Positions 7,366-21,282 of a DNA stretch of 64,000 bases are shown here, one piece after another. Below the pieces are notes generated by a model. That model was not told the DNA's origin. It was given only the letters and a program-made list of their open reading frames with translations, and searched no databases. The position numbers and the translations under genes were made by a program. The first letter of the stretch is position 1, and each line of letters opens with the position of its first letter. The stretch is from an uncultured Bacteroidales bacterium (GTDB taxonomy: Bacteria; Bacteroidota; Bacteroidia; Bacteroidales; Paludibacteraceae): the NCBI GenBank assembly GCA_945921355.1, contig CAMEKM010000003.1:1-64000 (forward strand), written 5' to 3'.

Positions 7366-9879
7366 TTAATTTTCTCTCCTGACACAACGAACACGTTCAT
7401 CATCATAATAACTCACTGTCCATTGGTCACCATCACTAAAATCGACAACATATGCATCCATCGCACCTCCCTTCGAACAACTCCAATAGCTTGCTGTAAG
7501 ATAAAAACCTGTGATCTCCATCCTTTTTAGATACATCGTTACTAATTGTGATTTCTCGGGTACAAACCAATCAGAAAATCCTCCATATGTCAAAGAAGAG
7601 CACAATGCATTTGCCTCATACCATGTCATTACAAAATCAAACTCGGGGTGTACACGATAAGTAGCATTGTCATGAATGAAAGTAGGTAATGCCATATAAG
7701 CAAAAGTCTCAGGAGTTATTTCTAATATATTACCATAAACAATTCCCGCTTCGCTCTTTGCATATGCACGAATATACAAGGAATTTGATCCAACTCCATT
7801 TATTGTCACCTGCTTTTCATATTGTACAGACGAGGTTTTAGCTACAGATACTTTTGTTACATTTGCATCATCAATCATCGGAGTACTCATTGTTCCATAG
7901 ATAAATCCTCGTTCTATATATTCTGGGTCACCCACTGCAACAATATTACCTATCAAATATATGTGCTCTGCATCTTGTACTGTGGCTGATATAGTTGTTA
8001 CCTCTGGCATAATGGCATTAAAATCCAAAGCGACTTCATCGCCATATGCCGTTCCTTTGCTACTTGTTGCAAAAGCACGTACATAATAGACACTACCCAT
8101 TTCCAAGTTGTTCAAGTTATAGGTATATGTACCAGTATTTGTACCGCTCACATTGATTACCGTTGCATCATCTTTGGTTGGATTATGCGCTACACCATAT
8201 ACAAAACCACGCTGTGTATAAGCAGGATCGCCTTTGCTCTCAATAGTGCCATGCAATGTAGCAATTCCTTGAGCTATAATCTTTCCTGTTACTTCTTGCG
8301 TAGATACTACAGGCATAATGGCATTAAAATCCATTTCTAGCTCATTACCATAAATCGTCCCCTTACTATTCGTAACAAATGCACGGATGTAATAAACCTT
8401 CCCCTCTATCAATCCTGTTGCAGTAGCGGTAAAATCACCTGTACCATTACCTTCAGCGATAACTTTACTATCACTTAAAGTTGGATTATGTACGGTAGCA
8501 TATACAAAGCCACGCTCCGTATATCCCAAATCGCCCTCAGAAACTACATTTCCCTTAAAGGCTGCGATTCCATCTGCGATATTCTTATTTGTAACTTCTA
8601 AAGTTTTCACTTCTGGCATAGTTGCTGTGAAATCACAACTCACCTCATTGCCATACACTGTGCCTTTCTTGTTAGTCACATACGCACGAACATAGTAGGT
8701 TTTGCCTTCTTCTAAGCCTGATACATTCTTACGGAAGATGCCCAACTCTGCACCGCTGACAATAAGTTTGGTATCATCTATCGTTGGGTTATTGGTCAGA
8801 GCATATACAAAACCACGCTCCGTATAGGCAGGGTCACCGACATAAGTTACCTTTCCATTGAAGATGGCAGTTCCATTTTCAATATTCAAATCTTTGATAC
8901 TATCGGTGACTACAGTAGGTGCAGATGTTTGTACTACAAACGACACTTGGTTCGTACTATAGAAAGTACCTAATACGCTTATCGCATATGCACGCACATA
9001 GTAAGTTGTATTGGCTGCTAAATCAACTGCTTGAGCAGAGAATTGTAATTTTTCATTTACAGGAACTGTTAATTTTGCTATCGTATTATCTACTGTAGGT
9101 TGTTGGGTTGTAGAATATACAAAACCACGCTCGGTATATTTCGGATTACCCTCGCATAGCAATTCAGCATTAAAAATGGCGATAGTTCCTTTGACATCCG
9201 TACACTCCAATGTATTGAGAGATACTGCTTTACGACTATTAACTGCAATTACTGTGAGTGATTTGCTACCGTTAGAAGATGTTATTTGTAAGGTGGTTTT
9301 GTTCTCGCCCTCCTCTAATTTGTTTCTGTCGATAGTAACTACGATAGGTTGCTTGCCATTAGGTGATACATCGCCGCTGGTTTTACTGATTGAATCAATC
9401 CAAACGGCAGTCTTAACAATCTCCCAAGAGAGTTTTTCTGCACCATCGTTGTAGATATTGAATGAACGTGCAATATCTGCCTCAGCATCACCAAAATGGA
9501 GTTCTAATAAGTCGGCATTATTTTCATCCACTACTTTGAGAGCAGGTGGAATTTGCTCCATCTGCACATCGCCCTTGGCTTGTTGTCCTGGTTTTACTTC
9601 GATGGTGCTACTTACGCCATCAAGATAACCAGTCTTGGTAATTAACAAGGTGTATTTACCTGGATCCAATTCAGTAAACTCAAATTGTCCTTCACTGCCT
9701 GTGATGGTTTTTAGTCCACCTGGGCTGAGTTCTACACCTGCTGATTTGATGGGTTCACCCGTAGCTTTGTCAGCCACTACACCATAGATACTGCCTGGAA
9801 GTTCTACATCTGGCACACATGCTTGGTATATGCCACATATAAGCAAGATACCCAAGAAAAGATAAAGAGATTTTTTCAT
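7366..9879 (-). CDS. Surface lipoprotein: carboxypeptidase-regulatory-like domain, BACON-like domain, five Fn3-like repeats, C-terminal DUF1566-like domain
   Basis: Lipobox LICGIYQAC; GSIYGVVADKATGEPIKSAGVELSPGG; repeated YTERGFVYxxxxNPTxDD...YYVRAYxTNxKGTxYGN; C-terminal FSDWFVPEKSQL...YWSCS...VRCVRREN. Confidence 0.8.
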   Translation of the reverse strand: MKKSLYLFLGILLICGIYQACVPDVELPGSIYGVVADKATGEPIKSAGVELSPGGLKTITGSEGQFEFTELDPGKYTLLITKTGYLDGVSSTIEVKPGQQAKGDVQMEQIPPALKVVDENNADLLELHFGDAEADIARSFNIYNDGAEKLSWEIVKTAVWIDSISKTSGDVSPNGKQPIVVTIDRNKLEEGENKTTLQITSSNGSKSLTVIAVNSRKAVSLNTLECTDVKGTIAIFNAELLCEGNPKYTERGFVYSTTQQPTVDNTIAKLTVPVNEKLQFSAQAVDLAANTTYYVRAYAISVLGTFYSTNQVSFVVQTSAPTVVTDSIKDLNIENGTAIFNGKVTYVGDPAYTERGFVYALTNNPTIDDTKLIVSGAELGIFRKNVSGLEEGKTYYVRAYVTNKKGTVYGNEVSCDFTATMPEVKTLEVTNKNIADGIAAFKGNVVSEGDLGYTERGFVYATVHNPTLSDSKVIAEGNGTGDFTATATGLIEGKVYYIRAFVTNSKGTIYGNELEMDFNAIMPVVSTQEVTGKIIAQGIATLHGTIESKGDPAYTQRGFVYGVAHNPTKDDATVINVSGTNTGTYTYNLNNLEMGSVYYVRAFATSSKGTAYGDEVALDFNAIMPEVTTISATVQDAEHIYLIGNIVAVGDPEYIERGFIYGTMSTPMIDDANVTKVSVAKTSSVQYEKQVTINGVGSNSLYIRAYAKSEAGIVYGNILEITPETFAYMALPTFIHDNATYRVHPEFDFVMTWYEANALCSSLTYGGFSDWFVPEKSQLVTMYLKRMEITGFYLTASYWSCSKGGAMDAYVVDFSDGDQWTVSYYDDERVRCVRREN
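7720..9210 (-). repeat. Approximately five ~100-aa internal protein repeats in the surface lipoprotein
   Basis: Repeated (E/Q)RGF(V/I)Y...PT.DD...Y(Y)(V/I)RA(Y/F).....G..Y(G)N blocks; boundaries approximate. Confidence 0.7.
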
Positions 9880-9891
9880 TGTTATATAGTG

Positions 9892-10221
9892 TTATTGTTT
9901 TTTATCCATTGTTATACTGATTTCCACAGTTTCACCTGCAATCGCATTTGCAGTTTTTCGGTTGGTGCTATAACCTGACTTCTGTACAGTAATTGTATAT
10001 TGTACGGCATCTAACTCTGCAAACTCAAAGCATCCATCTGCTTTTGTTACTATATTCTTTCCCGAAGGACTAAGTACAACCGACACACCCTCAATCGGCT
10101 CCATCATCTCGCTATCCACCACCGTTCCGCATACAGTGGCAAACGCATCATACGTTACTGGCTCACAGCCGACCATTATCAGCAATGCCAATAGCACAGC
10201 ACAAATACTTAATCGTTTCAT
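9892..10221 (-). CDS. Small lipoprotein with carboxypeptidase-regulatory-like (CarboxypepD_reg) domain
   Basis: Lipobox LLALLIMVGC; VCGTVVDSEMMEPIEGVSVVLSPSGKNIVTKADGCFEFAELDAVQYTITVQKSGY. Confidence 0.75.
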   Translation of the reverse strand: MKRLSICAVLLALLIMVGCEPVTYDAFATVCGTVVDSEMMEPIEGVSVVLSPSGKNIVTKADGCFEFAELDAVQYTITVQKSGYSTNRKTANAIAGETVEISITMDKKQ

Positions 10222-10236
10222 AATGTTTTGTTGTAT

Positions 10237-11022
10237 TTAGAAATTTACCACCGCTGCTATACCGCCACTTTCATAGTCAGCGTATGGTGCAAATCGTATT
10301 TGCGCCAAGTCACCTATCATGATATGTTTATCACCTTTAGCCACAATACCGTCTATTAAACTCCATGCATAGAATGCTACTGCACCTGCAATACAGACAT
10401 TGCGCGTGATATTACAGATATTGGCATTCTGTGCATAGCGCTGTTTGAGTGTAGAGTTATGTGTCATCGCTATTTGTTGTGCATAGTTTTGGCGAAGACA
10501 TTCTGCTGCAACAATACCACCTACCATCAATACTTCTCCTGCAATCATAGTAGCACCTTTACCTACGCTTCCTTTATATATTTGTGCCATACCAGGAACA
10601 AATACACGCGCAGAGAATGGATATTTCTCCGACAAAGTAACTGGCTCAAATAATAGTGATGGATTCTTGGCAGTCTGCACCAATAGATATACACGATATT
10701 GTCCTGCCTCAATACGTTCTACGTATTCATCCACTACACGTGCCTTGGCGATCAAGTCGTGTTCACTTTTAACTTGCACTTCATTACCTGTCATTGACAC
10801 CATGGCTTGTGTACCACTAGCCATACTACGGCGCTCTAACACTTGCTGCATCGCTTTCTTACGAGCATTGTCTGGCTCATATCCTACAGCAGACACTACT
10901 TCTACGTAGGAATTTTGGACTTCTTCAAAATACCCATCCGTCCATTTGGGGCGTTCGGTAATTTGGGAATAGGCGCCCTGCAATAGCAGAGCACCTATCA
11001 TTATCATTAAAAATCGACGCAT
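10237..11022 (-). CDS. Secreted/membrane protein with LPP20-like N-terminal domain
   Basis: Signal peptide; EVVSAVGYEPDNARKKAMQQVLERRSMASGTQAMVSMTG; C-terminal hydrophobic segments. Confidence 0.5.
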   Translation of the reverse strand: MRRFLMIMIGALLLQGAYSQITERPKWTDGYFEEVQNSYVEVVSAVGYEPDNARKKAMQQVLERRSMASGTQAMVSMTGNEVQVKSEHDLIAKARVVDEYVERIEAGQYRVYLLVQTAKNPSLLFEPVTLSEKYPFSARVFVPGMAQIYKGSVGKGATMIAGEVLMVGGIVAAECLRQNYAQQIAMTHNSTLKQRYAQNANICNITRNVCIAGAVAFYAWSLIDGIVAKGDKHIMIGDLAQIRFAPYADYESGGIAAVVNF

Positions 11023-11025
11023 AAA

Positions 11026-11622
11026 TTAGTGAGTTTCTTGATATTCCTCAAAACGCTTTTGCATCTTCTCACGATACACTTCCTCGTTAAAACCGATACG
11101 ATCTTTCTCATCCTGTGTCAAATGATCTTTAACTTCTTGAGAAATGCGGCGTGCTGTTTCCTCTTTAGAAATCTCAATCGCGATATAGCATTCAATATCG
11201 CCATCGTCATAGATTTCACTCCAACGAGTACAAGATTGCATTGTTTCATTGATAATTGCGTCAATGATACGATCGCCAGCAGAAGTCATCTTGCGCTCTA
11301 CATCATTACCACGGTTATTGCCTACAGAAGCAGAATACTCACTTACCATGCCTTTGTATGCATGTTGCATTTTCAAGCGAATCAGTTCTTGTGCAGCCAA
11401 AAGAGCACCTTTTTGCACTTCGTTACGTTGCATACTTGAGCCACGGAAACTGGTAGATGCCGCAAAATCTTGTTTGGTATCATACACTTGGCATGGAGCT
11501 TCGAAGGTCTCACCAAAAGGATTTTGCGTTTTTTGACTTTGTGCTACTGCTTGCTTAGCGCTGCAAGAACTGAGAACGAGAGCAGTCATCACCAAGACTG
11601 CAAAAGAATGGAATGTTTTCAT
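11026..11622 (-). CDS. LPP20-like lipoprotein
   Basis: Lipobox ALVLSSC; ALLAAQELIRLKMQHAYKGMVSEYSASVGNN. Confidence 0.5.
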   Translation of the reverse strand: MKTFHSFAVLVMTALVLSSCSAKQAVAQSQKTQNPFGETFEAPCQVYDTKQDFAASTSFRGSSMQRNEVQKGALLAAQELIRLKMQHAYKGMVSEYSASVGNNRGNDVERKMTSAGDRIIDAIINETMQSCTRWSEIYDDGDIECYIAIEISKEETARRISQEVKDHLTQDEKDRIGFNEEVYREKMQKRFEEYQETH

Positions 11623-11695: not shown

Positions 11696-12097
11696 TTACT
11701 TATTTTTTAGCATTCTTGCTGCCACATATACAACAAAATATCCCTTTTTATCACAGGTGATTTTTTGACAAACCACCTCCGTATCATTAAAGTTACCTGA
11801 AAATTCTATTTTAGATGTATTATTTTGTCCCGTCTGTTCTTTAGCCCTCGTTATTTTTTGCAGCAGTAGCATTTGTGCATTTCTTAGAGCATCCTGCATA
11901 GCTAAATTAAGATCAGGATTAGGAGAACTAACACCCAATGCTGCATAATAATTCTCATCATCTAACGCCTCTTCCTGACATGGCATTTGAAAATGCTCCA
12001 TTTTTGACATCTTCTTTTTTTTCGGTTTCTTAGCATAACTATCAGAAAAAGACACGCCAAAAGCAACTAGTAGGGCAATTAAGACTATTTTTTTCAT
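11696..12097 (-). CDS. Small secreted LPP20-like protein
   Basis: Signal peptide; ALGVSSPNPDLNLAMQDALRNAQMLLLQKI. Confidence 0.5.
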   Translation of the reverse strand: MKKIVLIALLVAFGVSFSDSYAKKPKKKKMSKMEHFQMPCQEEALDDENYYAALGVSSPNPDLNLAMQDALRNAQMLLLQKITRAKEQTGQNNTSKIEFSGNFNDTEVVCQKITCDKKGYFVVYVAARMLKNK

Positions 12098-12183
12098 GAT
12101 TGTGTTGTTTTAATTAGTTAAACATATATGTTTTTACTCACTGGTGAGTTTTCTTTCTAACCAATTAGACACAACAAAAAAGC

Positions 12184-12210
12184 GTGAAACTTGCTATTTG
12201 CCAGTTCCAC
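12184..12210 (-). terminator. Intrinsic terminator of the candidate ncRNA
   Basis: Minus strand GTGGAACTGGCaaataGCAAGTTTCAC followed by GCTTTTTT. Confidence 0.7.
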
Positions 12211-12279
12211 GACTTGAGGCTCTCGCATTGCCTTGATATCGAAACCGACAACGCGAAGCCCACGCCGAATATATACTAG

Positions 12280-12317
12280 TTGACAATTGACAGTTGACAG
12301 TTAACAGTTGACAATTG
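12280..12317. repeat. Heptanucleotide satellite (TTGACAG family)
   Basis: TTGACAA TTGACAG TTGACAG TTAACAG TTGACAA TTG. Confidence 0.9.
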
Positions 12318-12602
12318 CCCCAATGACCACACCTATTGTGTATAATATGTCGCGCATGCGTGCCTATACACGCAATAGCAACATACAAAGATGTTGGTCT
12401 GGATAGTCTATATCCCGTAGGACATCTATCGTTGCTAAGTCCTGATAAGATTTATAGAAAGTTGCGAAGTTTCTAAGAGTCAGAACAGAGCGCTAATAAA
12501 CGCCTTTATGTATGTCTGCAAAACCCTCCAAAGACAATTAACAGTTGCAGTTAATAATTCACAAATATCAACGCAGACATCCCTTCGTTGGGTTTCGCGC
12601 TG

Positions 12603-12634
12603 CAAAGATACAACATTTTTTTGAATCGTGCAAA
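12603..12634 (-). promoter_or_regulatory. Bacteroidetes-type promoter driving the candidate ncRNA
   Basis: Minus strand TTTG-N20-TATCTTTG. Confidence 0.75.
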
Positions 12635-17955: not shown

Positions 17956-19194
17956 TCATACCAAATTTAAATTGTGATGCATTTTCTCTTTCTTGGTGCG
18001 CATATAACGCAGGTTATAGGGATTAGGAGCTATCTCTATTGGAATATTCTCTACAATTTCTATGCCAAAACTCTCCAAGCCAATTCGTTTAACTGGATTG
18101 TTAGTCATTAAACGGAGTTTGCGTACTCCCATTTGTTGTAAGATTTGCGCCCCTACTCCATAGTTGCGCTCATCAGGTCGGAACCCCAAATGCACATTGG
18201 CCTCTACGGTGTCTTCTCCTTGTTCTTGGAGCTTGTAGGCACGAATCTTATTCATCAACCCAATACCACGTCCCTCTTGATTCATATAGACAATGATTCC
18301 CTTGCCCTCTTTCTCCACCATCTGCATGGCTTTGTGCAATTGCTCGCCACATTCGCATCGCTTTGAGCCAAAGATATCGCCTGTCATACATGACGAGTGT
18401 ACACGGCAGAGGATAGGTTCCTCCGCCTGCCATTCGCCTTTCACCAATGCGATGTGCTCTAGTCCCGTTGTCAGTTCGCGGAATGGTGTGAGCATAAAGT
18501 CGCCAAATTCGGTAGGCAGGCTCACCGTCTCGCCACGTTCAACGAGGGTGGTTGGCAGTTGAGAGTTGACAGTTGGCAGTTGACAGTTAGCAGTTGACAT
18601 GCGGTATGCGATGAGATCCTTGATAGAAATGAGGCTAAGTCCGTATTGCTCAGCCACTTTCTCCAGTTGTGGCATACGCGCCATAGTGCCGTCCTCGTTC
18701 ATAATCTCGATGAGAGCTGCTACAGGCTGCAAGCCTGCTAGGCGTACTAAATCCACCGCAGCCTCAGTATGCCCTGCACGTTGCAGCACGCCACACTCCT
18801 GCGCATAGAGTGGATTGATATGGCCTGGGCGACCAAATGTTTGTGGTGTAGAAGCTGGGTCAGCCAAAGCACGGATAGTGGCAGCACGATCTTCGGCACT
18901 CACACCTGTGGTACAACCTTCAAGTTTATCTACAGTGACCGTAAAAGGTGTGCCAAGCATAGAGGTATTGGTAGCGACTTGATGTACGAGATCTAACTCT
19001 GCGCAACGCGTTTCTGGTAGTGGCACACACAATACGCCGCGTCCATGCTGGAGCATGAAATTGACTTTATCAGGGGTTATCTTTTCAGCCGCAATGATGA
19101 AATCGCCTTCATTCTCACGATCTTCATCATCCACCACTATCACGAATTTGCCTTCGCGAATATCTTCAATAGCTTTTTCGATTGTATCCAACAT
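17956..19194 (-). CDS. ribBA: Bifunctional 3,4-dihydroxy-2-butanone-4-phosphate synthase / GTP cyclohydrolase II
   Basis: [21 protein letters not shown] (RibB) and [36 protein letters not shown] (RibA). Confidence 0.95.
18552..18600. repeat. Seven heptanucleotide units inside the ribBA coding sequence (interdomain linker)
   Basis: TTGGCAG TTGAGAG TTGACAG TTGGCAG TTGACAG TTAGCAG TTGACAT; encodes [17 protein letters not shown]. Confidence 0.95.
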
Positions 19195-21223: not shown

Positions 21224-21278
21224 TTGTCAACTGTCAATTGTTAACTGCTCACTGTCAACTGCAACTATCAACTGCCAA
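21224..21278. repeat. Heptanucleotide satellite (TTGACAG family)
   Basis: Minus strand TTGGCAG TTGATAG TTGCAG TTGACAG TGAGCAG TTAACAA TTGACAG TTGACAA. Confidence 0.9.
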
Positions 21279-21282
21279 TTGT

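Follow-up and report, generated by a model that had tools for sequence, protein, structure and literature searches.

Second-messenger riboswitches occur in many copies before diverse genes, and the purine riboswitch is an aptamer in which two loops kiss. The RNA described here shares with riboswitches and attenuators a 5' leader position, a structured core, mutually exclusive terminator and antiterminator pairings, and many copies before diverse genes. It differs from them in its two-domain fold, which is docked by a kissing loop, in a helix specific to each paralogue, and in matching no Rfam family. As in the purine riboswitch, the core is built by two kissing hairpin loops; in the leader, however, there are seven Watson-Crick pairs within a cloverleaf-like arrangement of P1, H4, P2 and H9 that extends across ~250 nt. 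T-box leaders are likewise long and carry a terminator/antiterminator, and the cloverleaf is superficially tRNA-like, but no T-box or tRNA match lies over the leader. Bacteroidales-1/6S RNA (RF01693) is also an abundant Bacteroidales RNA; in contrast, the leader is multi-copy, occupies a leader position and gives no cmscan match to RF01693.

In agreement with the original prediction, which recognised no RNase P, tmRNA or SRP hallmarks, cmscan against Rfam 15, Bacteroidales-1/6S included, returned no family at gathering score over the leader, and relaxed thresholds yielded chance hits only. One DUF805b RNA (RF02914) exceeds its gathering score at 662-696 of locus L022; it lies outside the leader, where that copy's 3' domain is lost, directly before a lipoprotein gene. 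The large scans of Fremin and Bhatt (2021, PMC8040213) and Weinberg (2010, PMC2864571) list Bacteroidetes RNAs of short length as well as terminators; searching their main texts by term brought up nothing of the leader's size or structure. We found no prior description in Rfam 15 or in the open papers searched. An uncatalogued multi-copy regulatory RNA with a covariation-supported structure implies that abundant gut Bacteroidales possess a regulon not recognised before.

One copy lies in the window, by which we mean the whole 64,000-nt stretch of DNA analysed. Its parts, and the genes that follow it, are these:

12176-12634, minus strand: leader RNA copy, promoter to terminator (from sequence)
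12603-12634, minus strand: Bacteroidetes-type promoter, TTTG-N20-TATCTTTG (from sequence)
12519-12602, minus strand: 5' part of the leader, with a copy-specific hairpin (from sequence)
12573-12580 with 12512-12519, minus strand: that hairpin, ATGTCTGC/GCAGACAT, conserved among close copies only (from sequence)
12417-12518, minus strand: conserved domain A (covariance model R1, 103.5 bits; covariation)
12500-12503 with 12490-12493, minus strand: hairpin H2 (phylogenetic null test; mapping onto the window)
12425-12503, minus strand: H2 plus pseudoknot PK2, which pairs H2 loop 12496-12500 with 12425-12429 (covariation)
12457-12473, minus strand: hairpin H4, with loop 12463-12469 supplying the first kissing-loop strand
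12276-12416, minus strand: variable arm separating domains A and B, carrying a heptamer satellite
12278-12317, within the variable arm: GTTGACA heptamer satellite array (from sequence)
12177-12275, minus strand: conserved domain B (covariance model R2, 95.6 bits)
12183-12264, minus strand: antiterminator PA, GCGUGGG strand 12259-12264 with terminator 3' arm 12183-12188 (covariation)
12242-12250 with 12199-12207, minus strand: helix H8, its 3' arm common with the terminator 5' arm
12217-12233, minus strand: hairpin H9, with loop 12221-12227 supplying the second kissing-loop strand
12176-12211, minus strand: intrinsic terminator, stem 12204-12211 with 12183-12190 and T6 at 12176-12181 (covariation)
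11696-12097, minus strand: downstream gene for a 133-aa signal-peptide protein, heading a co-directional run
11026-11622, 10237-11022, 9892-10221 and 7366-9879, minus strand: the co-directional genes that follow it

Domain A thus holds H2, its loop pseudoknot PK2 (the H2 loop paired with the segment following CAACG), H4 and the 5' strands of P1, P2 and H6; domain B holds the antiterminator strand, H8, H9 and the terminator. The minus-strand promoter and the terminal hairpin with its T tract are present as originally called, and an ORF check of the stretch agrees that it contains no credible reading frame. The terminator stem of this copy is imperfect and was overlooked by a simple terminator scan. 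Folding of the minus strand gives -139.8 kcal/mol, below every shuffle (-107.7 ± 5.8 kcal/mol; z = -5.5). The complementary words listed in the original prediction do occur, but most of them are not the conserved helices: ATGTCTGC/GCAGACAT, like the hairpins at 12333-12415, falls in regions that differ between copies, and no conserved pairing is formed by AGGAC/GTCCT. The heptamer satellite is present but does not interrupt the conserved core, because it is located in the one freely variable segment.

A DNA search of the window's own genome yielded several partial copies, and relatives' genomes added more. Domain A, the 5' core, was aligned from 30 copies (A1) to build covariance model R1, and domain B, the 3' core, from 29 (A2) to build R2; 28 of these 29 sequences come from the genus, so that R2 rests almost exclusively on near relatives. 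Within the genus, R1 matches 116 of 121 genomes at 1-27 copies each (858 matches in the 121 genomes; median 6 copies per genome; ~15 in the window's own genome); across the order, it matches 37 of 295 genomes sampled, which represent ~23 genera. The impression that similar sequence recurs in many Bacteroidales was therefore sound, and these genome counts are lower bounds because the filters were strict. There were no R1 matches in 298 sampled genomes from elsewhere in the phylum, which doubles as a control for the specificity of the model. At 134 sites, some of them in distant genomes, R2 detects domain B on the 3' side of a same-strand domain A, with -3 to 150 nt separating the two; leader length is 250-420 nt. 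Neither phages nor plasmids gave a BLAST match to the window copy. With a distant copy as the query, Phocaeicola plasmids and one phage contig were matched; the named carriers are plasmids of the human isolates Phocaeicola dorei CL06T03C03 and P. vulgatus CL10T00C06, which makes the RNA testable in cultivable strains. The phage copy is at 2498-2777 of MT839469.1, an unverified, unannotated contig from human faeces.

The structure is supported by covariation. An unbiased scan of 133 copies against a phylogenetic null placed P1 (A41-47 with B62-68) and the kissing loop as its top two helices, and at several positions of P1 all four pair types are seen. In a helix-by-helix test, none of 200 null alignments scored as high as the real one for any of eleven helices (P1, kissing loop, P2, H2, PK2, H4, H6, H8, H9, PA and the terminator, T), and slid-control helices were unremarkable. 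The alignments, made with MAFFT and covariance-model hits, partly presuppose H2, H3, H4, H8 and H9; they do not presuppose P1, the kissing loop, P2, PK2 or PA. H3, a candidate closing stem for domain A, was kept after the genus alignment and dropped for want of support in the broad set, where 59 of 200 null alignments did as well. These results bear on one of the outcomes that the original prediction had named as its refutation, a match to a repeat or mobile-element remnant. Some copies have indeed decayed (L022, L100 and L106 are without domain B), but compensatory changes far above the null contradict the idea of a remnant without RNA function, to which we assign a negligible chance.

The kissing loop joins the H4 loop of domain A to the H9 loop of domain B through 7 antiparallel nucleotides. 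All seven pair in 122 of 134 copies; on average a copy forms 6.81 of 7 pairs, whereas permuted combinations form 5.55. Around 18 sequence combinations occur, among them CUUCGCA/UGCGAAG, UCUGGUA/UACCAGA and CUUAGGA/UCCUAAG. P1, a 7-bp helix, differs in sequence among nearly all paralogues of a genome (13 of 13 are distinct in the window's own genome). Its strands pair at 6.8 of 7 positions within a copy and at 4.0 of 7 between paralogues of the same genome, a difference reached in 0 of 10000 permutations.

The aptamer-like core, consisting of domains A and B, the kissing loop and PK2, is found in a 5' UTR position. Of 131 copies, 72% carry a promoter of the form TTG-N17-23-TAxxTTTG no more than 250 nt ahead of the core, against 2.6% in shuffles. 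Of 128 next genes, 121 share the strand of the leader, compared with 83 of 126 preceding genes (Fisher p 4e-9). In 105 copies a start codon follows within 150 nt of the terminator, with a median gap of 63 nt and usually 30-90 nt. None of the 100 scannable gaps (10 nt or more) between terminator and gene contains a full promoter, whereas upstream of the RNA a full promoter is found in 74% and a -7 box in 93%. Given a tight co-directional gene and a promoter-free gap, it appears that the gene is transcribed only when polymerase gets past the leader, which argues for a cis-acting 5' leader and against an ncRNA that works independently. The original proposal of a structured RNA that has a promoter and a terminator of its own is strongly supported, but the gene context speaks against its independence. 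Its own promoter and strong terminator could also belong to a multi-copy gene for a trans-acting small RNA, beside which the downstream gene is incidental. The co-directional next gene in 94% of cases, its tight distance and the promoter-free gap all speak against this, as do homologous gene families that stand behind the leader in more than one bacterial family; we see a very small chance that it is correct, and a free-standing ncRNA was rejected on the co-directional next gene and the lack of a promoter in the gap.

The downstream proteins form 80 clusters among 121 and belong to 65 Pfam families. They include BspA-type leucine-rich repeat proteins (11), T9SS-tailed proteins, lipoproteins, kinases, DNA methyltransferases, further defence-like proteins and HxsD. 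Genes related to the window's downstream gene also follow the leader in another family, and two of the four further co-directional genes in the window encode carboxypeptidase-regulatory domains. A secreted family with the motif KEAKxLxKxGWxxxPGALPL stands behind the leader at four loci in two bacterial families (L057, L128, L132 and L153), and HxsD genes of His-Xaa-Ser RiPP systems at two loci, also in two bacterial families (L137 and L144).

A terminator lies ahead of the gene, and the antiterminator pairings PA and H8 covary and are exclusive of it. The terminator 5' arm is common to the 3' arm of H8, the terminator 3' arm is common to PA, and the conserved GCGUGGG motif of PA mimics the terminator 5' arm; a T-rich end is present in 130 of 134 copies. 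Because the terminator and the H8/PA set both covary, two exclusive folds appear to be under selection. In computed energy the two states differ little: the median difference is ~5 kcal/mol in favour of the terminator, which is preferred in 78% of copies; this is consistent with a switch, for which it is weak evidence. P1, P2 and H6 best fit the terminated fold, since P1 crosses H8, and we infer that they belong with it.

From the promoter, the terminator, both helix sets, the kissing loop and the position before a gene, we consider it probable that the element is a cis-acting 5' leader RNA that acts as a transcription attenuator. Transcription would begin at the housekeeping-type promoter immediately upstream of the leader. 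The nascent RNA would form domain A (H2 with its loop pseudoknot, and H4) and domain B (H9), and the two would dock through the 7-bp kissing loop and the flanking helices P1 and P2. In the OFF state, the terminator hairpin and U tract would form, compatible with P1, P2 and H6. In the ON state, H8 and PA would occupy the terminator 5' and 3' arms and allow read-through into the gene. Both states are presumably used in the cell, with a signal read by the docked core selecting between them. Points against the attenuator are the diversity of the downstream genes, a length of 250-420 nt, which is long for a riboswitch, the failure of H3 to gain support in the broad alignment, and the poor inter-domain pairing of the window copy.

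The downstream genes are too diverse to suggest a ligand. The signal is most likely a small molecule or ion, acting in a riboswitch-like manner, and otherwise a protein; direct riboswitch-like sensing is our guess at the trigger. It is possible, though we put it forward tentatively, that the leader represents a new class of large riboswitch, spread across the order Bacteroidales, whose kissing-loop-docked core senses a global signal. If so, gut commensals would use the class to coordinate dozens of genes for surface, secretion and defence functions, perhaps in response to a second messenger or an envelope or stress metabolite, and the near-always paralogue-distinct 7-bp P1 would keep the folding of each copy private. 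The main rival is protein-mediated control: an attenuator driven by a trans-acting protein (an antiterminator or RNA chaperone) or by another RNA, with no direct ligand. In the protein-mediated variant the docked core would be a landing site and all copies would form one regulon. A diverse regulon with no common pathway fits such a trans-acting factor, and so does the fact that primary sequence is conserved over long stretches of H2/PK2 and of the CGGCGUGGGC region. The intricate tertiary pairing, however, exceeds the needs of a simple protein site, and we regard this explanation as rather unlikely.

The window copy is an atypical member of the proposed attenuator family. The helices inside each of its domains are intact; pairing between the domains is poor (P1 4 of 7, P2 1 of 4, kissing loop 6 of 7). 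A block of ~240 nt, from GACATACATAAAGG via the heptamer array to GTTGTCGGTT, is nearly identical in this copy and in copies from three other genomes, each of the four ahead of different genes. In the rest of domain B the window copy differs from the other three mainly at the H9/P1/P2 segment, ~12205-12242, and it also diverges from them upstream of domain A. Domain B of those three copies, set against domain A of the window copy, gives perfect predicted pairing (18 of 18). By sequence comparison, the window copy has the look of a chimera or gene conversion that arose recently; segment 12205-12242, which breaks its inter-domain pairing, is likely the product of gene conversion between paralogues, and the copy may be impaired. 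The block shared by four genomes ahead of different genes could also mean that the leader is a mobile or recombining promoter-leader cassette, spread mainly by being copied and with regulation secondary. A copy number of 0-27 within one genus and the copies on Phocaeicola plasmids and the unverified phage contig are in keeping with this. Yet we noticed no transposase, terminal repeats or target duplication around copies, and both the covariation of individual copies and the bias in their orientation show that function has been selected for, which leaves the cassette a small chance. The heptamer recurs at the same place in the variable arm of three other copies (L061, L058 and L124), with differing repeat numbers, and the GTTGACA satellite is also found at 18551-18599 and 21225-21282 of the window and at many dispersed sites in the genome.
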